NCBI RefSeq assembly: GCF_001573155.1
Contig: NZ_JRWG01000006.1
Coordinates: forward strand, 124,001 to 188,000
From: Aequorivita aquimaris
GTDB lineage: Bacteria > Bacteroidota > Bacteroidia > Flavobacteriales > Flavobacteriaceae
Reading direction: 5' to 3'
Length of the DNA: 64,000 nucleotides
A program made the translations under genes and the position numbers. Within the stretch, counting starts at the first letter, position 1, and the number at the start of each line of letters is the position of its first letter. Positions 6,808 through 18,143 of this stretch are shown here, in pieces. Below the pieces are notes generated by a model. The model saw only the letters and a list, made by a program, of their open reading frames with translations. It did not search any database and was not told where the DNA came from.

Positions 6808-8103
6808 CTAAACCAATTGTTCTTTAAAAACGCTCTTGAAAGCTTGTTCCAAATCTGTCTTTAAATCGTCGATATTTTCCAAGCCAACGGAAAGTCTAAT
6901 TAAATCTTGACTTACCCCCGAGGCCGTTTGATCTGCTTCGTTTAACTGTTGGTGCGTTGTGCTAGCAGGGTGAATTATCAAGGATTTGGTATCTCCTATA
7001 TTTGCTAAAAGTGAAAATAACTTCACATTATCAACTACTTTTTTAGCAGCTTCAAAGCCAGCTTTTACGCCAAAAGTAACCAAGCCACTTTGCCCTTCGG
7101 GAAGGTATTTTTGGGCGAAATTGAAATACGGATTATCCTCCAAACCGGGATAATTCACCCAAGCTACTTCTTCTCTACTTTGAAGCCATTTGGCAATATT
7201 CAGCGCATTTTCGCTGTGTTTTTTAATTCTAATTTCCAGAGTTTCCAAACCTTGAATAATTTGAAAAGCGCTAAACGGGCTCAAAGCCGCGCCGAAATCG
7301 CGAAGCCCCTCGAGGCGTACTTTTGCGATAAAAGCAGCTTCCTTTAAAACTTCGGAATAAATTAAACCGTGATAACCTGCGGAGGGTTCGGTAAATTCAG
7401 GGAATTTTCCGTTGGCCCAATCAAAATTTCCTGCGTCAATAATTGCACCACCCAGTGTTGTCCCGTTTCCGTTGATGTATTTTGTGAGGGAATGGATTAC
7501 AATATTTGCACCGTGCGCAATAGGGTTCAACAAAGCCGGAGAAGCGACCGTATTATCCACAATTAGTGGAATTTTATTCGCCTTTGCTTCAGCGGCAATC
7601 GCTTCGATATCCAAAACATCCAACTTCGGATTTCCGAGGGATTCGATGAAAATTGCGCGAGTATTTTCTTTTACGGCTTTTCCAAAGTTTTCAGGATTTG
7701 AACCATCGATAAAAGAGGTTGTAATTCCCAAACGCGGTAAAGTAACGTTCAACAAATTGAAAGTGCCGCCGTACAAACTGCTGGACGCCACAATATGGTC
7801 GCCAGCGCGAAGTAGTGTCAGCAATGTTGTGGAAATGGCAGATGCGCCCGATGCAGTGGTAACCGCGCCGATACCCCCTTCCAAAGTCGCCAAACGTTTT
7901 TCCAAAATATCGCAAGTTGGATTGTTAAGGCGCGAATAAATAAATCCGGGTTCGGAAAGATTGAACAGGTTTGCAGCGTGGTCGCTATTTTTAAAAACGT
8001 AGCTGGAAGTTTGGTAAATTGGCACCGCTCTGGTTCCTCCGTTGGCGGTTGCATCGTGTCCTGCGTGCAACAACTTTGTTGCGAAATTGTTTTGTGTACT
8101 CAT
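6808..8103 (-). CDS. metY: O-acetylhomoserine sulfhydrylase (aminocarboxypropyltransferase)
   Basis: PLP enzyme of the Cys/Met metabolism family that makes homocysteine from O-acylhomoserine and sulphide. 431 residues, the usual length for MetY rather than the shorter (about 390) MetB/MetC. Seen: YSRLNNPTCDILEKR, TTASGASAIS, and the PLP lysine in HSLTKYINGNGT (Lys208). It is the first gene of the leftward methionine operon; a SAM-I riboswitch lies 128 nt upstream, so high SAM should shut it and the downstream genes off. Confidence 0.95.
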   Translation of the reverse strand: MSTQNNFATKLLHAGHDATANGGTRAVPIYQTSSYVFKNSDHAANLFNLSEPGFIYSRLNNPTCDILEKRLATLEGGIGAVTTASGASAISTTLLTLLRAGDHIVASSSLYGGTFNLLNVTLPRLGITTSFIDGSNPENFGKAVKENTRAIFIESLGNPKLDVLDIEAIAAEAKANKIPLIVDNTVASPALLNPIAHGANIVIHSLTKYINGNGTTLGGAIIDAGNFDWANGKFPEFTEPSAGYHGLIYSEVLKEAAFIAKVRLEGLRDFGAALSPFSAFQIIQGLETLEIRIKKHSENALNIAKWLQSREEVAWVNYPGLEDNPYFNFAQKYLPEGQSGLVTFGVKAGFEAAKKVVDNVKLFSLLANIGDTKSLIIHPASTTHQQLNEADQTASGVSQDLIRLSVGLENIDDLKTDLEQAFKSVFKEQLV

Positions 8104-8226: not shown

Positions 8227-8230
8227 TTGT

Positions 8231-8347
8231 CGTTATCTATCATCAATTCTGAATTTTCAGGATTGTTGTAGAATGTAGCACCTTCTTTCCGGAGAAAGGG
8301 TTGCTAAGGCGTCATAGGGTCTATTCCCTCGGCCTTTCTTGATAACA
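8231..8347 (-). promoter_or_regulatory. SAM-I (S-box) riboswitch aptamer controlling the metY operon
   Basis: Read on the minus strand, the segment shows the S-box core: P1 GTTATC/GATAAC (8346-8341 with 8237-8232), P2 around AAAGGCCGAGGGA, the conserved GACCCTATGACGCC and TTAGCAACCC stretches, P3 CCTTTCT-CCGG-AAAGAAGG, the junction GGTGCTA, and P4 with CTGAA/TTCAG. All conserved blocks appear in canonical order and spacing. It lies between a good promoter and metY and would repress methionine synthesis when SAM is abundant. Confidence 0.95.
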
Positions 8348-8376
8348 TTTCAGTAAAGATTTGAACTTTGTGAGTG

Positions 8377-8465: not shown

Positions 8466-8480
8466 CCCAAGACAAATTAA

Positions 8481-8530
8481 GAGGAAAGATTTGACTGATT
8501 GCAACCTCAATAAAAAATGCTAAAGGCAGT
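8481..8530 (+). promoter_or_regulatory. SAM-II-like riboswitch aptamer in the metK leader
   Basis: Order and spacing match the compact SAM-II (metA) H-type pseudoknot. P1 is GAGG (8481-8484) with CCTC (8505-8508). The loop holds AGATTTGACTGATTGCAA, closely like the SAM-II GATTT...TTGCAA core. It is followed by an A-rich linker and GCTAAAGG (8519-8526). The pseudoknot helix can form between ACTG (8494-8497) and CAGT (8527-8530), with GC (8501-8502) to GC (8519-8520). A perfect 10-bp stem between 8486-8495 and 8554-8563 would compete with the aptamer and may be the expression platform. P1 is only 4 bp, so a covariance-model score is needed. Confidence 0.75.
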
Positions 8531-8592
8531 GAAAACTTCCCTTCGGCGCTTTCGTCAAATCTTCTGAAAACTATAAATTTTAAAACCATTTT

Positions 8593-9846
8593 ATGGCCTA
8601 TTTATTTACTTCGGAAAGCGTTTCTGAAGGACACCCAGACAAAGTTGCGGATCAAATTAGCGATGCGCTTTTAGATAATTTTTTGGCTTTCGACCCTGAA
8701 AGTAAGGTAGCTTGCGAAACGTTGGTCACCACCGGACAAGTTGTTTTGGCAGGCGAGGTGAAAAGCAATACCTACCTTGATGTGCAAAATATTGCACGCG
8801 ATGTAATTAACAAGATTGGTTACACAAAAGGCGAATACAAATTTAGTGGCGATAGCTGCGGAGTTATTTCATTGATTCACGAACAATCACAAGATATTAA
8901 CCAAGGTGTGGACCGCGCGAATAAAGAAGAACAAGGCGCTGGCGATCAAGGGATGATGTTTGGCTACGCTACCAAGGAAACCGAAAACTATATGCCGTTG
9001 GCCTTGGATATTTCGCATAAAATATTAATTGAATTGGCTGCACTTCGCAGAGAAGATTCGGCAATAAAATACCTGCGCCCCGACGCGAAAAGCCAGGTAA
9101 CCATTGAATACAGCGACGATAATATTCCGCAGAAAATTGTTGCAATTGTTGTTTCCACACAGCACGATGACTTTGATGAAGACGAAAAAATGCTTTCGAA
9201 AATCAAAAAGGATATAACCGAAATTTTGATGCCGCGAGTGAAAGAGCAACTTCCCGAATACGTTCAAAAATTGTTTAATGACGATATTACCTACCACATA
9301 AATCCAACGGGGAAATTCGTAATTGGTGGCCCACACGGAGATACCGGCTTAACGGGAAGAAAAATCATCGTTGATACATACGGCGGAAAAGGCGCGCACG
9401 GTGGCGGTGCTTTTAGCGGAAAAGACCCGAGTAAAGTTGATAGAAGTGCGGCTTATGCAGCGCGACATATTGCAAAAAACTTAGTTGCTGCAGGTGTTGC
9501 AAACGAAATTTTAGTTCAGGTTAGTTACGCAATTGGCGTAGTAGAACCAACTTCAATTTTGGTGAACACTTACAACTCTAAAAACATAAAACTTTCTGAC
9601 GGCGAAATCGCTAAAAAGGTTTCAGAAATATTCAACATGCGTCCTGCCGCAATTGAAAAAAGGTTGAAATTGAGAAACCCTATTTATTCCGAAACGGCTT
9701 CTTATGGACATATGGGAAGAAATCCTGAAGTGATTACCAAAACTTTTGAAAGCCCGTACAATGGACAAATTACAAAAGAAGTGGAGCTTTTCACTTGGGA
9801 GAAGTTGGATTATGTTGAAAAAGTGAAGGAAGCATTTGGAATTTAA
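8593..9846 (+). CDS. metK: S-adenosylmethionine synthetase
   Basis: Makes SAM from methionine and ATP. 417 residues; the Bacteroidota form is longer than the 384-residue E. coli enzyme. Seen: the N-terminal SEGHPDKVADQISDALLD motif, GAGDQGMMFGYAT, the conserved GGPHGDTGLTGRK and the glycine-rich GGGAFSGKDPSKVDRSAAY. It is divergent from the methionine operon, and its own leader carries a SAM-II-like element, so product feedback on synthesis is likely. A strong hairpin with T-tract follows the stop. Confidence 0.97.
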   Translation: MAYLFTSESVSEGHPDKVADQISDALLDNFLAFDPESKVACETLVTTGQVVLAGEVKSNTYLDVQNIARDVINKIGYTKGEYKFSGDSCGVISLIHEQSQDINQGVDRANKEEQGAGDQGMMFGYATKETENYMPLALDISHKILIELAALRREDSAIKYLRPDAKSQVTIEYSDDNIPQKIVAIVVSTQHDDFDEDEKMLSKIKKDITEILMPRVKEQLPEYVQKLFNDDITYHINPTGKFVIGGPHGDTGLTGRKIIVDTYGGKGAHGGGAFSGKDPSKVDRSAAYAARHIAKNLVAAGVANEILVQVSYAIGVVEPTSILVNTYNSKNIKLSDGEIAKKVSEIFNMRPAAIEKRLKLRNPIYSETASYGHMGRNPEVITKTFESPYNGQITKEVELFTWEKLDYVEKVKEAFGI

Positions 9847-11685: not shown

Positions 11686-12333
11686 TTAAATTATATTATG
11701 ATTTTTCGCCTTTTGCACCGCTTCAATCTTGCTGTGCACTTGTAGTTTTTTGTAGATATTTTCAATGTGTTTTCGGACCGTGCTGGGCGAAAGAAAAAGA
11801 TGATCTGCAATTACCGTATAACTTAAACCTTTGCTGAGCTGCTCCAAAACCTCAACCTCGCGGGTGGAAAGGGAGATTTCCTCCTTGTCTTTCAGGTTTT
11901 GAATATCTATGGGGTTTCTTAACAGCTTCAATGTTTTCATTGCTATTGAAGGGTTCATCGCCGCACCGCCATTAAGGGTTTCCAAAATGCCTTCGTATAA
12001 ATCTTTTGGGTTTATTTCCTTCAGCAAATACCCGTCCGCACCCGCTTTTATGGCGTTGAAAATATGTTCGTCATTGTCAAAAGCCGTAAGCATGATTATT
12101 TTGATGTGCGGATATTTCTGCTTAACGATTTGCGTGGTTTCAATGCCGTTGAGAACGGGCATTTCAATATCCATCAAAATTAAATCGAGGTTGTGGTTTT
12201 CCTCCAATTTTGTAAGCAGCTCACTACCGTTCAACGAGGTATGCTTCACCGAAACATCTTCAAAAAAAGAAAGTTTCTCCTTTACGGCGTGGATAAGGAA
12301 GGAATTATCGTCAACAATGGCGAGTTTCAACAT
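11686..12333 (-). CDS. NarL/LuxR-family response regulator
   Basis: 215 residues: a receiver domain (about 1-120; acidic pair Asp8/Asp9, phospho-acceptor Asp55 in LILMDIEMPVLNG, Lys in the YLLKEINPKDL segment) and a C-terminal LuxR helix-turn-helix (about 148-210, LSTREVEVLEQLSKGLSYTV and LSPSTVRKHIENIYKKL). Partner of the histidine kinase encoded just upstream. Its own promoter region holds a 16-bp palindrome (12394-12409) shared with four neighbouring transcription units, so I infer it binds that palindrome and regulates itself and the local genes. Confidence 0.93.
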   Translation of the reverse strand: MLKLAIVDDNSFLIHAVKEKLSFFEDVSVKHTSLNGSELLTKLEENHNLDLILMDIEMPVLNGIETTQIVKQKYPHIKIIMLTAFDNDEHIFNAIKAGADGYLLKEINPKDLYEGILETLNGGAAMNPSIAMKTLKLLRNPIDIQNLKDKEEISLSTREVEVLEQLSKGLSYTVIADHLFLSPSTVRKHIENIYKKLQVHSKIEAVQKAKNHNII

Positions 12334-12362: not shown

Positions 12363-12409
12363 TGAAATTAGCTTAAAAAAGACAACCGGAAAATAGGGCA
12401 TTTGCCGTA
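12363..12409 (-). promoter_or_regulatory. Operator-promoter A (response regulator gene)
   Basis: Minus-strand reading: palindrome TACGGCAAATGCCCTA (12409-12394), then exactly 23 nt, then a -7-like box TAATTTCA (12370-12363). A second TATCTTTA lies a further 9 nt on. The start codon is about 30 nt downstream of the box. Same arrangement as sites B-E. Confidence 0.6.
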
Positions 12410-12414
12410 TTAGT

Positions 12415-14214
12415 TTATTTCTCCATAAATGGTTTCGCCAATCTCAACAATATAGAAGTTCCTTTCTTAGAGGATTTAAGTTGAAGTGTACCACCTATCT
12501 CCCGAGCGCGTTTTTTCATATTGTTTAGGCCGTTGCCCATAACGACAGTCTCGGGTTCGAATCCTTTTCCGTTATCGGTAATCTCAATTTGGTACTGCCC
12601 ATCTCCTTTTGAAATATTCACCTCGATTTCGTCGGCTTCGGCATATTTCAATGAATTGTTTACCGCCTCTTGAATGATTCTGTAAATATTCATTCCCTCG
12701 ACAGATGAGAATACATGCGATTCATCAACACTCTCTTCAATATTAAAGGAGAATTCGGTTTTTTCCGAAGTGTTTTTGGCGTGCTCAATAAAATTGGCGA
12801 TTCGGGCCTGCAGGTCCTCAAAAGTTATGTTTTCCTTGTTCATCGCCCAAATAGTGTCGCGCAGTTCATAAATGGTCTGCGAGGTAAAGGCACTGATTCC
12901 GCTAAGTTTGTTGCCAAGTTTTTCACCAATGTCCGTAAAGCCGAATTTCAGGTTGTCAATGCTGGAAATTATAAAAGTGAGCTGCGCCCCAATATTGTCG
13001 TGCAAATCGCGAGAAATTCGCAAACGCTGTTCCTGCAGTTTGTTTTGGGTTTCAATTTTTGCCAAAGCCGTTTTTAACTCGCTTTCCTTTTGAAGTTGAC
13101 GGTTTCTAAGTTTTTGCTGGTTGTAGAGCAAATACCCGAGCAGGCCGAGAATCAGTGCCAGTCCAAGACTCCCAAAAATAAAAGTGTTTTTTCTGCGGAC
13201 CTCCAAATCCTTTTCTGCCAGCTGGGCGCGTTGTTGTAGGATTTCGTTTTGTTTTTTTTCGGTTTCAAATTCCACGTTCAAGGCCGCAATTCTTTCCTGT
13301 ACCTTTAATCCGTGAACGCTGTCCTTTACTGCCGCATATTGTTCAAAATAAAATAGTGCCGAATCTGTATTTTTTAATTTTTTATAGATATCAGAAAGCA
13401 GTTTGTAGTTATACTGGGTGAGGTTTTGATATTGTTTCTTTTTTGAAATAGGCAACGACTTATGGACTAGCGGAATTGCATTGCTCCATTTTTCCTCAGC
13501 AATAAAAACTTCTCCCAATTGGGTATAGTTTTCGGCAATCCCCAACGAATCTGCCCACTGTAAACGTTGCTGAAGCGATTTGTTGAAATATTCCCTCGAT
13601 TTAGAAAAATTTCCCTGTAAACCATATGCCCCGGCCATATTGCTCCAACTGTAGGGAATGCCAATAGTATCGTTACGTTTCAGCTTTATCTCCAAGCCCT
13701 TTTCAAAATAAAACAGGGCACTGTCCAGCTCCTTATTTATTTCCTTTAAAACTCCATAATTATTATAAATATCCTTTAGTTCATTCTCAAAATTATTGGC
13801 TTCGGCAATATTTTTCCCTTTTTGCATATAGCTAAGGGCCTTGGGCAAATCGCGATATTTCATACTATAACCCAATTCCGCATAATAATCTGCCACACGC
13901 TCCATTTTGCCGAGTTTCTCATAAATCTTGATCCCATTAATTGCTTGCTTGGTGCTTTCTTCGTAATTACCTTGATATCCATACACCAAACTCAACTGGG
14001 AATGGGCATCAGCCTGGCCCAGTTTATATTCTATTTTACGGGCGTCGTTTAGGTTTTTTTTAAAAATGGCAACTATGGAATCCTGCGGGAGGTTGAGCCC
14101 CTGCACATAGATTTTATTTATGGAATCGATTTTGGCCTTCTGGTGTTGAATATCCTGTGAATGAAGATTCCAAACCAACAGAAGCAGCAAAAGCTGGAGG
14201 AGATTGTTCTGCAT
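12415..14214 (-). CDS. TPR-containing sensor histidine kinase (HisKA_3 family)
   Basis: 599 residues. Signal peptide (first about 20, ending NLHSQ), a run of tetratricopeptide repeats in the periplasmic part (about 60-320), a transmembrane helix NTFIFGSLGLALILGLLGYL (about 346-366), a coiled coil, the HisKA_3 phospho-acceptor in ISRDLHDNIGAQL (His405), then an HATPase_c domain with N box QEAVNN (about 519), DNGKGF (about 547) and GNGLNNMKKRA. Phosphorylates the regulator encoded 82 nt downstream. Only 5 nt separates it from the small membrane-protein gene before it. The periplasmic TPR sensor suggests a protein or peptide signal. Confidence 0.93.
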   Translation of the reverse strand: MQNNLLQLLLLLLVWNLHSQDIQHQKAKIDSINKIYVQGLNLPQDSIVAIFKKNLNDARKIEYKLGQADAHSQLSLVYGYQGNYEESTKQAINGIKIYEKLGKMERVADYYAELGYSMKYRDLPKALSYMQKGKNIAEANNFENELKDIYNNYGVLKEINKELDSALFYFEKGLEIKLKRNDTIGIPYSWSNMAGAYGLQGNFSKSREYFNKSLQQRLQWADSLGIAENYTQLGEVFIAEEKWSNAIPLVHKSLPISKKKQYQNLTQYNYKLLSDIYKKLKNTDSALFYFEQYAAVKDSVHGLKVQERIAALNVEFETEKKQNEILQQRAQLAEKDLEVRRKNTFIFGSLGLALILGLLGYLLYNQQKLRNRQLQKESELKTALAKIETQNKLQEQRLRISRDLHDNIGAQLTFIISSIDNLKFGFTDIGEKLGNKLSGISAFTSQTIYELRDTIWAMNKENITFEDLQARIANFIEHAKNTSEKTEFSFNIEESVDESHVFSSVEGMNIYRIIQEAVNNSLKYAEADEIEVNISKGDGQYQIEITDNGKGFEPETVVMGNGLNNMKKRAREIGGTLQLKSSKKGTSILLRLAKPFMEK

Positions 14215-14219
14215 AAAAC

Positions 14220-14462
14220 TTATAATTGGATTTCGGGTTGCTCAAGCAGCGCAGCCGATAAGTTGTACTTCAGAAAATTATATTTCAAAAGCGCTTGTTC
14301 CCGAAAAAGAAGTTGTGTTCCGTGTAACTTAAAAGTATTTTCCAATTGGATCATCCGACCTCGGAACTGTGCAGTGGCCTCCTGTTTCCTTTTATAATGC
14401 CACCCCAAGAGCCCGAGGACACCAAAAACGAGCAAGCTGCTGAATATAATTGTTAAACCCAT
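14220..14462 (-). CDS. Small single-pass membrane protein cotranscribed with the histidine kinase
   Basis: 80 residues I do not recognise. An N-terminal hydrophobic helix (IIFSSLLVFGVLGLLGW, about residues 5-21) is followed by a basic WHYKRKQEA stretch and an amphipathic, coiled-coil-like tail. It ends 5 nt before the kinase start and has its own promoter with the palindromic site B about 16 nt upstream of the predicted transcription start region, which supports a real gene. A kinase accessory or signal-modulating role is inference. Confidence 0.6.
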   Translation of the reverse strand: MGLTIIFSSLLVFGVLGLLGWHYKRKQEATAQFRGRMIQLENTFKLHGTQLLFREQALLKYNFLKYNLSAALLEQPEIQL

Positions 14463-14483
14463 AGTCCGAGACTTTTAAAAAAC

Positions 14484-14530
14484 TAAAGATACATTTTCTT
14501 TCCTTATAAATTTATAGGGTAACTGCCGTA
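14484..14530 (-). promoter_or_regulatory. Operator-promoter B (small membrane protein and histidine kinase)
   Basis: Minus strand: TACGGCAGTTACCCTA (14530-14515), 23 nt, then -7 box TATCTTTA (14491-14484). Predicted start near 14478, 16 nt before the ATG at 14462. The operator abuts the T-tract of the small-RNA terminator. Confidence 0.65.
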
Positions 14531-14563
14531 AAAAAAATAAACCCCGGGGTAGCCCAAGGGTTT
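14530..14563 (-). terminator. Intrinsic terminator of candidate small RNA
   Basis: Minus strand: AAACCC-TT-GGG-CTA-CCC-C-GGGTTT (14563-14539), a two-part GC-rich stem, followed by A and eight T (14538-14530). No gene ends here, so it implies a separate transcript. Confidence 0.7.
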
Positions 14564-14704
14564 TTAAAAACTGCCAATGCTCCTCACTTCATCAGCGGTT
14601 TTTTAGGTTAGTTAGCTACTTAATTCCTGAAAATTCAGACGGCCCCTACACCCTATCCCCACAAAGTTTTGTGGCCGCCTTCCTTTTCGTTGGATCATAC
14701 ATTT
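14530..14704 (-). ncRNA. Candidate small RNA under operator-promoter C
   Basis: The 14463-14769 gap has no convincing gene but has its own promoter (site C) and a strong terminator, defining a transcript of about 175 nt. Internal hairpins include CCACAAA-AC-TTTGTGG and CTGAA/TTCAG. Possible reading frames are only 18 codons (from ATGTATGATCC) and 28 codons (from ATGATCCAACG), neither with recognisable features. Most likely a regulatory RNA belonging to the two-component regulon; a short peptide is the alternative. Confidence 0.5.
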
Positions 14705-14709
14705 AAAAA

Positions 14710-14756
14710 CAAAGTTGCCATTTTAAAATCTATGTTTCAATACGGCAATTGCCTTA
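14710..14756 (-). promoter_or_regulatory. Operator-promoter C (candidate small RNA)
   Basis: Minus strand: TAAGGCAATTGCCGTA (14756-14741), 23 nt, then CAACTTTG (14717-14710). Predicted start near 14704. It drives no protein gene directly, only the 175-nt unit ending in the terminator at 14530. Confidence 0.6.
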
Positions 14757-14769
14757 CTTTACCGTTGGT

Positions 14770-16266
14770 TTAATTTTTCAGTATCTGAAATGATTGTACC
14801 CCAAAGCGGGTCGTAACGTAAACCAAATACAAGCCGGGCGTACCCTGCATTTCAAATGAAATTTCAGCCATGTCATTATACCTTTTACTTGCCACTACCT
14901 GCCCCAGCAAGCTGTATTGCGCAACCATTATAGTTTCAGAAGTTTTTGGCAGTTTCAACATTAACCGATCATGGGTTGGGTTCGGGAAAGCCAGTATTTT
15001 CTTGTCGGCAAGGAGGTCCTGAGTTCCCAAGACTCCACCCTCATAAACACGCACGGCACCCGTGAATGTTCCGTGGGAAGAAGAAAGGGGCATGCCAATA
15101 ACCACGGTTTCGCCGCTGGCAGAAATGGCAGTATTGTAGCCCCCAAAGTCGCCGTCAACCAGACCGTTGATCCCGCTATCTACTTGGTACCAAGTATTGC
15201 CAACCAACCTATATACGCGGGTTTGGCCACGCAAATCTCCTCCGCCCGGATGCTGTACTGCCCCAGCGACAAGGGTGGTGCCGTCTGCCGATAGGGCTAC
15301 GGAATGACCAAAATTATAGTTGTCATTTTCTCCATCTATGGCTTGGCCCAGCTGTTGCCATTGCGTTCCGTCCCATTCAAATGCGCGTACCTGCCCGCGG
15401 TCGGCTCCGTGGTGCCAAGCTCCTATTGCCAGCCGATTGCCATCAGCCGAAAAATCCAACGATTTTCCAAACCAATCGGTTTCTTCAGTACCGGTAAGCC
15501 TATTGCCCATCTGGTTCCATTGGGTGCCGTTCCATTCGTAGATATCAACACTGCCCGCATCCGTCGCGAAATCGTCGTTCATATGCGTGCCGATGGCCAC
15601 TCTTGTTCCATCTGCGGAAAGTTTTATGCAATGGCCCATATAATCATATTGATTCTCACCTTCAATGGCACTGCCCATTTGGTTCCAGTCGGTACCATCA
15701 AAGGTATAGACCCGCACTTCCCCAATTTGTGTTCCCGAAGGTCCGGCAAGTGGGGCACTAATGGCCACGGTATTGCCATTTTCGTCTAACGACACAGACC
15801 AACCTGAATTTATATCGTTGAGAACTCCGCCAATGGTAGGTCCGAGTTGTTGCCAGGAGGTGCCGTTCCACTCAAAAACCTTTACGTGTCCGGCAGAAGC
15901 TCTTCCACCGGCCATAGCACCCGTGGCCCCGACGGCCAACCTGTTTCCATCGGGCGTCAAGGACGCGCTGTATCCAAATTTATAGTTGGCAGCCTCTCCC
16001 TCAAGGGTTTGGCCTCGCTGCGCCCATTGATTCCCGTTCCACGAAAATACGCGCATATTTCCCGATGACGACCCGTTGGGATCGGCCTGGTATGCTCCTA
16101 CGGCCAGCGTGTTTCCATCGGCGCTAACAGAAATGGAGCTGCCCGTTGAATCAAATTCAGACCCAAAAAAATCAGCACCTTTTTGTTGCCACTGGCCGTT
16201 TACAGTGGCAGTAAGCATTATTGACCATAACAAGTACAATGTTGGTTTAAGTAAGTTTATTTTCAT
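14770..16266 (-). CDS. T9SS-secreted beta-propeller (FG-GAP-like repeat) protein
   Basis: 498 residues. Signal peptide (about 1-24, ending TATVNGQ), then about seven imperfect repeats of roughly 50-55 residues, each with a core like SADGNTLAVGA, VRVYEWNGTQWNQMG and a following G-x-x-DWFG turn, as in FG-GAP/WD-like propellers. The last about 75 residues are a type A type IX secretion sorting domain (AFPNPTHDRLMLKLP, LLGQVVASKRY, GLYLVYVTT). Exported to the cell surface or medium. Its promoter bears the perfect palindrome of site D, so it is a probable target of the neighbouring response regulator. Confidence 0.88.
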   Translation of the reverse strand: MKINLLKPTLYLLWSIMLTATVNGQWQQKGADFFGSEFDSTGSSISVSADGNTLAVGAYQADPNGSSSGNMRVFSWNGNQWAQRGQTLEGEAANYKFGYSASLTPDGNRLAVGATGAMAGGRASAGHVKVFEWNGTSWQQLGPTIGGVLNDINSGWSVSLDENGNTVAISAPLAGPSGTQIGEVRVYTFDGTDWNQMGSAIEGENQYDYMGHCIKLSADGTRVAIGTHMNDDFATDAGSVDIYEWNGTQWNQMGNRLTGTEETDWFGKSLDFSADGNRLAIGAWHHGADRGQVRAFEWDGTQWQQLGQAIDGENDNYNFGHSVALSADGTTLVAGAVQHPGGGDLRGQTRVYRLVGNTWYQVDSGINGLVDGDFGGYNTAISASGETVVIGMPLSSSHGTFTGAVRVYEGGVLGTQDLLADKKILAFPNPTHDRLMLKLPKTSETIMVAQYSLLGQVVASKRYNDMAEISFEMQGTPGLYLVYVTTRFGVQSFQILKN

Positions 16267-16298
16267 AATAGCTTGGTTTTATAAATTAAATAGTTTTA

Positions 16299-16345
16299 CA
16301 AAGTTTAAAATCGCAAGAGATTCAAACAATAAGGCAATTGCCTTA
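16299..16345 (-). promoter_or_regulatory. Operator-promoter D (T9SS propeller protein)
   Basis: Perfect 16-bp palindrome TAAGGCAATTGCCTTA at 16330-16345; 23 nt further on the minus strand lies AAACTTTG (16306-16299). Predicted start near 16293; the ATG is at 16266. Confidence 0.7.
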
Positions 16346-16436
16346 ATTACACGAAAAGTAAAACCGGAGGAAAAACTCACGTTTCGCCCCCGGCCCACGT
16401 AAAAACCTCAACATAGAGATTTTCTTTAAATATTTA

Positions 16437-16964
16437 TTACTGATTGGTCACTTCAATATTGAACTGGCCGTCGGTTACTGAAACACTCTCACTAGTGTTA
16501 TTCAAATTATAACCAGTAAAATTAAACGTACCCTTAATTGTATTTCCGTCGTAACTAGAAATGTTTAGCGTACCATTGTTTCCTTGTCCGGTTCCAACAG
16601 TTGAATAAACAACTACTGTATTAGGATCTGGGTTACTTGGATCTGGTAAAAAACTATATGTGCCAATATTAACAAAATTCAAATCATAGCTACCTTCGCC
16701 ATCAAAACTCGTGAGAATAATTTGTAGGTTTTCAGACTGTTCTGTTCCACCACTAATGGCAATCGCTTGTCCTGCACCAGAATTGGTCACCCTAGCCACT
16801 ACTGTTCCTTGCATTCCTGAAAAGTTGTTTCCATCAACTTTTGCAGTAAATGTTCCAGTACCGCCTTGTGGGTCATCGCCTCCATCATCATCTTTTTTAC
16901 AAGAAGTTAAACTTACGGCAACTACTGCCATTAATACTAAAATAGATTTTTTAAATGTTTTCAT
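16437..16964 (-). CDS. Lipoprotein, DUF6252-like
   Basis: 175 residues. Lipoprotein signal peptide with lipobox SLTSC (Cys22) followed by KKDDDGGDD, typical of Bacteroidota lipoproteins. The mature part is a small beta-rich domain (TFTAKVDGNNFSG, then ISSYDGNTIKGTFNFTGYN) resembling DUF6252 lipoproteins. Probably anchored in the outer or inner membrane; function unknown. Site E lies in its promoter, so it should share regulation with the propeller protein. Confidence 0.8.
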   Translation of the reverse strand: MKTFKKSILVLMAVVAVSLTSCKKDDDGGDDPQGGTGTFTAKVDGNNFSGMQGTVVARVTNSGAGQAIAISGGTEQSENLQIILTSFDGEGSYDLNFVNIGTYSFLPDPSNPDPNTVVVYSTVGTGQGNNGTLNISSYDGNTIKGTFNFTGYNLNNTSESVSVTDGQFNIEVTNQ

Positions 16965-17015
16965 AATGTTTGGTTTAATATTCCGCTATAGGCGAATACG
17001 TGATTAATGTTGAAG

Positions 17016-17062
17016 CAAAATTGACCCAAACCGAAAGTTTTTACAATAGGGCAATTGACGTA
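17016..17062 (-). promoter_or_regulatory. Operator-promoter E (DUF6252 lipoprotein)
   Basis: Minus strand: TACGTCAATTGCCCTA (17062-17047), 23 nt, then CAATTTTG (17023-17016). Predicted start near 17010, about 46 nt before the ATG. Confidence 0.6.
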
Positions 17063-17099: not shown

Positions 17100-18143
17100 C
17101 TAAAACCGAATGTGCGGAAACCGTTTTTGAATCTCCCTAATTTTTAATTGAAGTTTTTCCGAAAACTGAAGGTGTTCAGCACTATTTGGGTTGAAGGGCC
17201 TGTGATTTAAACCACTTTGAACAGCCGTAATTTCTTTTTGAAGGGTTTCGGTTTCCGAAGCAATCCACACTCGTGAAAATTTCTGCCAAATAAGCTCGAT
17301 GGCGGTGCTGTTTGGATGAAGCAGATCCTCGGCGTAAAAACGGTAATCGCGCAACTCGTCCATCATGATTTCGAAGGCAGGAAAGTAAAAGGATTTACGA
17401 TTTACGTCCCGAAAGCTATCGGGAGCCGATTTTAGATTTAAGAAGTGGTGGATCGCGGAAATCAGATGTGCTTTGCTGAGTGAATTTTCCGCGAAACCAT
17501 CTTTAATATGCCGCACGGGCGAAACGGTGTTTATAATTGTCGCGGCTAGGTTTATTGTTGAAATTTTATCGAAAATAGTTTGAAGGCTTTTTGAAATGGT
17601 TTCGATGGAAAGCAATTCCTTTTGAAAATGTTGCTTCGGAAGTTTATGGCAGTTGGCTACAATTTCGCCTGTGCTGAGCGGAGCCGAAGCACGGTCGCTG
17701 AGCGGAGCCGAAGCACGGTCGCTGAGCGGAGCCGAAGCGTCGACAGTCCTGTAAACCCACGAAGTTCCAAAAGTGAAAATGATATGCGTTGCAGAAAAGA
17801 GAGCTTTGCGAAGGTTTTGTAATGCTGAATTCAGATTCTCCAAAAATTCGTTTTTATCCAAAGCCGAAAGCTCGGAATGCACGTCAAAACATTTCCAAAC
17901 TTCGTTGTGCTGAAAAATATCTTCTTCCGAAAATGATACGTCATCAATTGCGCGAACAATCAGTTTTTCAATCGATACAGGATTGAAAATTACCCCAAAC
18001 GGATTTTGTAGATTTTGGAATTTATAAAAATCAAACTTCCCTCCAATATTTTCCGAAAAACAGCTTCCCATCAAAAGGATTTTGGAGGAATAATCTATTT
18101 GATTTTCTTCAGGTTTTAAAGATATTTCGGTTTGGAGCTTCAT
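17100..18143 (-). CDS. GSCFA domain-containing protein
   Basis: 347 residues. Named motif GSCFSENIGGK near the N-terminus (about residues 25-35), with FGVIFNP, FTFGTSWVYR and SPVRHIKDGFAENSLSKAHL, as expected of the SGNH/GDSL-related GSCFA family. A putative cytoplasmic hydrolase; substrate unknown. Start set at 18143 (MKLQTEISLKPEE); an upstream in-frame ATG would translate a CTCTGCG repeat and is not credible. An internal 66-nt insertion (17673-17738) encodes the tandem octapeptide DRASAPLS. Confidence 0.85.
   Translation of the reverse strand: MKLQTEISLKPEENQIDYSSKILLMGSCFSENIGGKFDFYKFQNLQNPFGVIFNPVSIEKLIVRAIDDVSFSEEDIFQHNEVWKCFDVHSELSALDKNEFLENLNSALQNLRKALFSATHIIFTFGTSWVYRTVDASAPLSDRASAPLSDRASAPLSTGEIVANCHKLPKQHFQKELLSIETISKSLQTIFDKISTINLAATIINTVSPVRHIKDGFAENSLSKAHLISAIHHFLNLKSAPDSFRDVNRKSFYFPAFEIMMDELRDYRFYAEDLLHPNSTAIELIWQKFSRVWIASETETLQKEITAVQSGLNHRPFNPNSAEHLQFSEKLQLKIREIQKRFPHIRF
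17673..17738. repeat. 24-bp tandem repeat inside the GSCFA gene
   Basis: Two complete 24-bp units and a partial third. The unit starts GCTGAGCGGAGCCGAAGC and ends ACGGTC. The period is a multiple of three, so the reading frame is preserved and the protein gains ASAPLSDR units between TVD and TGEIVANC. The word resembles the CGACTGCGCTCAGG intergenic palindromes elsewhere in the window. Confidence 0.8.

Follow-up and report, generated by a model that had tools for sequence, protein, structure and literature searches.

What is controlled by five copies of a 16-bp palindrome that lie within 4.7 kb of each other, each at the same distance from a promoter-like box? The question is raised by a 64,000-nt stretch of Aequorivita aquimaris (contig NZ_JRWG01000006.1, positions 124,001 to 188,000), referred to here, at its full length, as the window, in which the palindromes surround the genes of a two-component system. 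The original prediction held that the adjacent NarL/LuxR-type regulator binds these sites and activates a local, autoregulated regulon of surface proteins, an interpretation that the sequence comparisons described here support. It is very probable that a sensor kinase with TPR repeats acts through the NarL-type regulator on sites composed of two inverted 7-mers with a 2-bp gap (7-2-7), leading to autoregulation and to the production of a lipoprotein, a propeller protein and an RNA. The five sites are as follows.

12394..12409, minus strand: palindrome 1 (7-2-7), predicted autoregulatory promoter of the regulator; -7-like box at 12363-12370
14515..14530, minus strand: palindrome 2, predicted promoter of the kinase operon; box at 14484-14491
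14741..14756, minus strand: palindrome 3, predicted promoter of a small RNA; box at 14710-14717
16330..16345, minus strand: palindrome 4 (perfect), predicted promoter of an FG-GAP protein; box at 16299-16306
17047..17062, minus strand: palindrome 5, predicted promoter of a lipoprotein; box at 17016-17023

All five palindromes were located exactly where they had been reported and, read on the minus strand, each is separated from its box by precisely 23 nt. Perfect symmetry is confined to 16330-16345 (12, 10, 14, 16 and 12 of the 16 positions match in sites 1-5, respectively), and a search of the window with up to two mismatches to TANGGCAATTGCCNTA returns just these five copies, as had been claimed. 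With up to three mismatches there are nine matches, compared with 4.28 +/- 2.16 in shuffled sequence, and 5 of 100 shuffles reach nine, which alone is weak evidence. The sites consist of two inverted 7-mers with a 2-bp gap and TAC-type ends, and take the form TACGGCA-AT-TGCCGTA across the set; the third place of one heptamer half is often A or G, not C. TAC-type ends also characterize the NarL consensus. The boxes, at their fixed place, are the variants CAnnTTTG and TAnnTTTA, against a flavobacterial consensus of TAnnTTTG (PMC9723704, excerpts). The weakest of the five, TAATTTCA, belongs to the regulator's own site, and in three genus loci (L131, L145 and L148) the regulator's box is out of register at 23 nt. 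The palindrome centre had been placed near -42; if positions are counted from a Flavobacterium sigma-A box that spans -12 to -5 (PMC9723704, excerpts), it is found at about -43.5.

In a genome-wide motif scan, which had been suggested as a check, the tight motif is concentrated in the cluster and the loose motif is not enriched over a reversed control. With up to one mismatch, the genome has five sites, four of them within the cluster. For the degenerate motif TANGNCANNTGNCNTA, the 3.15-Mb genome has six sites, compared with two for the reversed control, and four of the six are inside the 4.7-kb cluster, the fifth cluster site (14515) differing from the pattern at one base; of the two outside, one lies within a gene and the other is without a box at 23 nt. 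With up to two mismatches there are 33 sites against 29 in the reversed control, and thus only the tight motif together with the spacing is informative. Candidate distal members of the regulon were rejected, C2:86756 for its intragenic position, and C2:176904 and C3:229764 because a box at 23 nt is lacking.

Comparison with relatives was more decisive. The genus sample comprised the regulator regions of the window and of 27 further genus genomes (28 in total, 377 kb). Loci L046-L050, which duplicate genus genomes, were removed from the site, helix–operator and promoter-class counts, and a box was scored as [CT]AnnTTT[GA] at exactly 23 nt. These 28 regions contain 107 sites, whereas six control patterns of comparable composition give 0-1; every one of the 107 lies upstream of the regulator, and 93 have the box at exactly 23 nt in the forward direction, compared with none in the reverse. 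The predicted conservation of the palindromes with the regulator is therefore borne out within the genus. A further 77 loci from other genera yielded 137 sites (controls, 0-3), of which 104 are boxed at 23 nt (2 on the reverse) and 127 are upstream of the regulator. Because the loci are related, the sites are to be regarded as conserved and not as independent. The genes and the RNA that the five sites precede, all on the minus strand, are listed below.

11686..12333, minus strand: NarL/LuxR-type response regulator, 215 aa, the proposed palindrome binder (Pfam Response_reg, 2.3e-24; GerE, 4.6e-18)
12415..14214, minus strand: sensor histidine kinase (Pfam TPR repeats, HisKA_3 and HATPase_c)
14220..14462, minus strand: small single-span membrane protein, 80 aa, first gene of the kinase operon (open reading frame, ORF)
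14531..14705, minus strand: predicted stand-alone small RNA (sRNA), ~175 nt (conserved core 14527-14642; start placed from the box, end at the U-run)
14770..16266, minus strand: secreted FG-GAP beta-propeller protein with a type IX secretion system (T9SS) type A C-terminal sorting domain, 498 aa (PF14312, 1.3e-18; TIGR04183, 5.3e-07, above cut-off)
16437..16964, minus strand: lipoprotein of the DUF6252/Riean_0653 family, 175 aa (PF19765, 9.3e-08; NF052634, 1.1e-17, above cut-off)

The output and autoregulatory promoters of this set differ in type. Among genus sites matching both site and box, which alone were scored, TTG follows the palindrome directly at 55/55 output promoters (lipoprotein, 26/26; PQQ propeller, 13; FG-GAP, 4; RNA, 12) and at 0/45 autoregulatory promoters (regulator, 23; kinase operon, 22), all of which have a T..A box. 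A 633-aa kinase in L134, misfiled by length as PQQ, was left uncounted. The box begins with C and ends with G at 51 of the 55 output promoters, and TTG is combined with CAnnTT.G in all 12 loci scored for the RNA. The split is less clean in other genera, where TTG is found at 34/39 sites before the lipoprotein (37 loci), at 2/17 regulator promoters and at 1/12 kinase-operon promoters. In E. coli, NarL activates promoters from 7-2-7 sites situated just upstream of -35, one example being centred at -44.5 (PMC7419079, excerpts).

The proposal of a surface-protein regulon had overlooked the RNA, the two promoter types and the outputs that recur across genera, namely the DUF6252 lipoprotein and a unit of PQQ propeller and RNA. 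The lipoprotein is the most widely found target, and is the first ORF after the site in 68 loci (five of them duplicates). The FG-GAP propeller of the window was found in only 4/28 genus regions. In Riemerella, transposon mutants of Riean_0653 lose most haemolysis, which the gene restores, and the recombinant protein is not haemolytic (PMC7881567, excerpts).

Four of the palindromes precede genes, as had been stated. The remaining one, palindrome 3, was said to precede a gene-free unit, which extends towards palindrome 2; this is correct in that no conserved frame is present, and what was missed is that the unit is a conserved structured RNA. A coding role was considered for a 28-codon frame in its 5' part and rejected, since this part is shared, by eye, only with L126 among the RNAs compared. 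In related loci the RNA comprises a first hairpin with an ACUAACC loop, a second with a conserved purine loop, and a terminator hairpin with a U-run. The stem of hairpin 2 varies and its loop, GAaGUGAGGAG and variants (UGAGGAG-type), is constant. Both sides have changed in 9/28 pairs in an alignment of 11 sequences (A1) and in 21/28 pairs in an alignment of 33 matches (A2), with 0/500 shuffles in either case. A covariance model matches the window RNA with E 8.8e-16, the window sequence being among the model's seed, and finds the RNA in 28/28 genus genomes. The distance to the regulator is <=7 kb in 26 of these and 18 kb in G009; in G007, the assembly of which is fragmented, RNA and regulator are on different contigs. 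In a family sample of 249 Flavobacteriaceae genomes, in which the regulator was called at E<=1e-50, matches occur in 17 genomes, 13 of them <=10 kb from the regulator. The four remaining matches, away from the regulator, resemble ordinary terminators by eye, as do L186-L190 among the weaker covariance hits in the window's own genome. No Rfam family matched the RNA of the window or of L127, L132, L133 and L146 at gathering score.

The position of the RNA in relatives suggests how it arose. In 14 genus genomes it immediately follows the stop codon of a propeller gene (Pfam PQQ_2 at 4.2e-17 in L046, where the protein was scanned), the model match overlapping the last codons, so that in these genomes it has the structure of a 3'UTR-derived sRNA, a structured mRNA 3' end with a terminator; the window RNA stands alone. 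In the family sample, 11 of the 13 matches linked to the regulator likewise follow an open frame with a C-terminus of this kind. At E<=1e-30, the PQQ/BamB-like propeller gene is present in 14/28 genus genomes (14 of 25 good assemblies) and was not found in the other 14, including that of the window. An output-type palindrome promoter lies directly on the RNA in 13 of these 14, which predicts a stand-alone sRNA. A tree of gene presence, built by a quick method and with rows G007, G021 and G009 under half filled, requires the state to change five times; starred branches make three of these changes necessary, and both outgroup loci carry the gene. The simplest reading of these sequences would be that the coding sequence has been lost repeatedly with promoter and RNA kept, and therefore that selection acts on the RNA; fewer loss events might be needed if the locus had been exchanged between species.

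It is quite possible, although we would put it slightly below an even balance, that the system's indispensable output is the RNA rather than the protein: a NarL-type-regulated mRNA would have given rise, from its 3' end, to a stand-alone sRNA gene by several independent coding losses, and this RNA would belong to a group of siblings sharing the loop GAAGUGAGGA, the second of which follows a cytochrome oxidase gene and has a different palindrome, likewise spaced by 23 nt. Several observations tell against the part that the RNA plays in the main explanation given at the outset. On the side of structure, A2, which was fitted to the model and contains the seed sequences, is biased towards the structure; of five measures applied to A1, that of pair types is reached by 25/500 shuffles; and the window RNA keeps hairpin 2 and the terminator with hairpin 1 pairing poorly, and alone folds unremarkably (z -1.1, 28/200 shuffles). 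On the side of origin, three of the genomes in which the PQQ gene was not found (G007, G003 and G019) are represented by assemblies that are 69, 89 and 87% complete, and G025 keeps the RNA behind an apparent remnant of the gene end, without a palindrome. As to targets, a search with the loop complement TCCTCACTT gave 33 occurrences against 10 in the reversed control and no convincing leader target; 29 of the 33 were viewed in context, and 23 of those lie inside an open frame on either strand. In the leaders of the regulon's own genes, TCCTC occurs in 7/104 stretches, five of which share a single location within the regulator gene, with no clear target.

The failure of these target searches, the strong terminator hairpin at the end of the RNA and its ancestral place directly behind a stop codon would all suit a simpler explanation, in which it is only an elaborate terminator or an mRNA-stabilizing 3' end with no action in trans. 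This is the strongest of the competing explanations, and is nonetheless rather unlikely: hairpins 1 and 2 covary, the loop is constant as the stem changes, and promoter and RNA are kept in 13/14 genomes that lack the coding sequence, where nothing is left to stabilize.

A second small RNA was observed in the same genome (L185; L200:9100-9300, G000:C2:38650-38785, minus strand), behind a cytochrome c oxidase subunit I-like gene and ending in a terminator. Its loop, GAAGTGAGGA, is like that of the window RNA, and a palindrome, TNCGTAGTACTACGTA / TGCGTAGTACTACGTA, lies 23 nt before the box TATCTTTA. Units of this kind were seen in 9 of 12 loci examined, that of the window's genome included, and the palindrome differs in L209. 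No Rfam family matched the second RNA at gathering score. The combination of RNA and palindrome hints at sibling sRNAs under paralogous regulators. Elsewhere (L262:1500-1600; G000:C9:76293), a perfect TACGTAGTACTACGTA is separated by 23 nt from TATATTAG, with an open frame of 354 aa beyond, possibly as a further member of the regulon of this second palindrome.

The identity of the protein that binds the palindromes of the window must next be considered. The putative regulator consists of a receiver domain and a GerE helix-turn-helix, both above the Pfam cut-off, with VraR and NarL as its closest solved relatives and SPSTVRKHIENIY as its recognition helix; it is matched in 28/28 genus genomes at 89-100% identity. 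It was rejected as a NarL equivalog (126 bits against a cut-off of 250). If it binds the sites, changes in its recognition helix might be accompanied by changes in the operator. Helix and operator were compared in 84 of 105 loci, those in which the lipoprotein gene was found after removal of duplicates, using the best site before that gene. A helix of the type ..SPST.. goes with CA..TG cores, among which GGCAATTGCC and close variants are frequent, and one of the type ..S[TVSHKQ]GT.. goes with TACGTAATTCRTCGTA or TACGTCATTTGTCGTA-like cores. PST-type helices are paired with CA..TG cores in 54 loci and with another core in one, where the helix is actually PAT; xGT helices are paired with CA..TG in 9 loci and with other cores in 20. 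In a search with free spacing, TACGN8CGTA was found before the lipoprotein in 29/29 xGT loci (four control patterns, 0-1), with a box exactly 23 nt after it in 27 of the 29, and it lies <=150 nt from the regulator's start in 19/37 xGT loci. The sequence of the lipoprotein-promoter site thus changes with the recognition helix and its position is retained, as would be expected of a local regulon. It is suggestive, from these sequences, that the operator core follows the regulator.

In the family sample, the regulator is present in 63/249 genomes. Of these 63, 17 have the exact palindrome, compared with 7 of the 186 without the regulator, and 21 of the 34 palindrome sites are <=12.5 kb from the regulator gene (reversed control, 7 sites). 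The sites accompany the regulator in relatives and the exact palindrome is associated with its gene, in agreement with a local autoregulated two-component regulon. Some of the evidence points the other way. In addition to the seven genomes that have the exact motif and no regulator, six sites are found elsewhere in regulator-bearing genomes, and 46/63 genomes with the regulator have no exact copy, though this is expected where the core has diverged. The first search before lipoprotein genes imposed the 23-nt spacing, which was left free only in the TACGN8CGTA search. Lastly, a receiver-domain tree needs five helix changes and gives one independent pair on starred branches, or three on all; with so few helix–operator switches, a sign test is unable to reach significance.

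The palindrome could instead be bound by another LuxR/NarL paralog or by an unrelated dimeric regulator, with the two-component genes as mere targets. Paralogs are likely, since the initial regulator search returned 37 candidate regions in the window's own genome, and the motif in genomes without an ortholog and the second palindrome of the same length and spacing before another RNA would both be in keeping with a different binder. Such a binder is nevertheless improbable, given that all 107 genus sites are upstream of the regulator gene, that the regulator's own promoter carries a site, that the operator core follows this regulator's recognition helix, and that most exact sites in the family sample lie near its gene. 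Some NarL-type sites function in repression, and palindromes are able to form hairpins. Still less probable, however, is that the site represses, or that it is a DNA hairpin or terminator feature and not a protein site, in view of the constant spacing from the sigma box, which holds for a single strand (93/107 against 0 on the other), the TTG immediately after the palindrome at every genus output promoter scored, and a layout that matches activating NarL 7-2-7 sites beside -35 (PMC7419079, excerpts).

Activation by the adjacent regulator is accordingly the preferred reading, and the mechanism that we infer would be as follows. A signal at the TPR domain would activate the sensor kinase; a signal peptide and one transmembrane helix, as read from the sequence, indicate that this domain is probably periplasmic. 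The kinase would phosphorylate the adjacent regulator, as the families of the two proteins suggest. A regulator dimer would then bind the 16-bp inverted repeat, the downstream edge of which abuts -33 and the centre of which lies about 43.5 nt before the start, and may activate sigma-A promoters from there. It would raise its own expression and that of the operon for the small protein and the kinase, and would switch on the DUF6252 lipoprotein, the secreted or surface propeller protein and the RNA. Ancestrally, this RNA was probably the structured 3' end of the regulated PQQ/BamB-like propeller mRNA. In the lineage of the window and in others of the genus, which lack the coding sequence and have the palindrome promoter on the RNA itself, it would accumulate as a stand-alone sRNA, and its exposed purine loop would most likely serve to regulate other transcripts in trans.

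The 80-aa membrane protein has no match in Pfam or NCBIfam; its sequence is weakly conserved, and its place is retained in most of the genus loci listed (tblastn). Two further features of the window were noted. SAM-I and SAM-II riboswitches stand back to back at 8230-8348 (minus strand) and 8475-8534 (plus strand), between divergent genes at 6808-8103 and 8593-9846 (metY-like and metK-like as read from the sequence), and the pair is also present in L132. A 24-bp direct repeat at 17680-17740, inside a GSCFA-family gene, encodes a repeated DRASAPLS.

The locus may provide a full set of regulator, sites and targets for a signalling pair that about one in four genomes of the Flavobacteriaceae sample carry (63/249), in a phylum with few mapped activator sites and sRNAs. 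The varying recognition helix and operator could serve as a natural series for reading the DNA specificity of the NarL family. The presence of the PQQ gene in half of the RNA-bearing genomes represents a natural experiment in the passage from mRNA tail to sRNA gene, and strains without the coding sequence allow a direct test of RNA function. A literature search, with subscription journals mostly outside its scope, found no published description of the locus.

Several known systems resemble it in part. The sites are like those of the E. coli NarL promoters yeaR-yoaG and ogt NarL II, where a 7-mer inverted repeat with a 2-bp gap lies just upstream of -35 (PMC7419079, excerpts). They differ from E. 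coli NarL sites in having a putative Bacteroidota sigma-A promoter (-33/-7), the heptamer TACGGCA and five local copies around the regulator. FimS/FimR of Porphyromonas gingivalis also combines a Bacteroidota kinase with a periplasmic TPR domain and a regulator that activates surface-protein genes (PMC11053733, excerpts). Its targets are fimbriae, however, and no sRNA is mentioned in those excerpts; the kinase of the window was rejected as FimS, scoring 48.6 bits against an equivalog cut-off of 600. Rfp18 of Flavobacterium psychrophilum is likewise a conserved structured Flavobacteriaceae sRNA with predicted pairing via a stem-loop, for which the excerpts name no regulator (PMC9723704). Rfp18 is compared here from its published description.

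The Cpx regulator is of the OmpR type, unlike the NarL-type regulator described here. As in the Cpx system (CpxP/CpxQ), a two-component system is predicted to activate the gene of an exported protein, and the 3' end of the mRNA contains an sRNA (PMC4817254). The protein and the RNA are different, and in the present case half of the genus genomes lack the coding sequence and retain the RNA. RsaG of Staphylococcus aureus, from the 3' end of the HptRS-dependent uhpT, is also a 3'-end sRNA whose parent mRNA needs a two-component system; it belongs to a different phylum and arises by 5'-3' degradation of full-length RNA (PMC9438474, excerpts). The locus resembles CpxP/CpxQ and RsaG in overall arrangement and differs from them in its protein, its RNA and its phylum.

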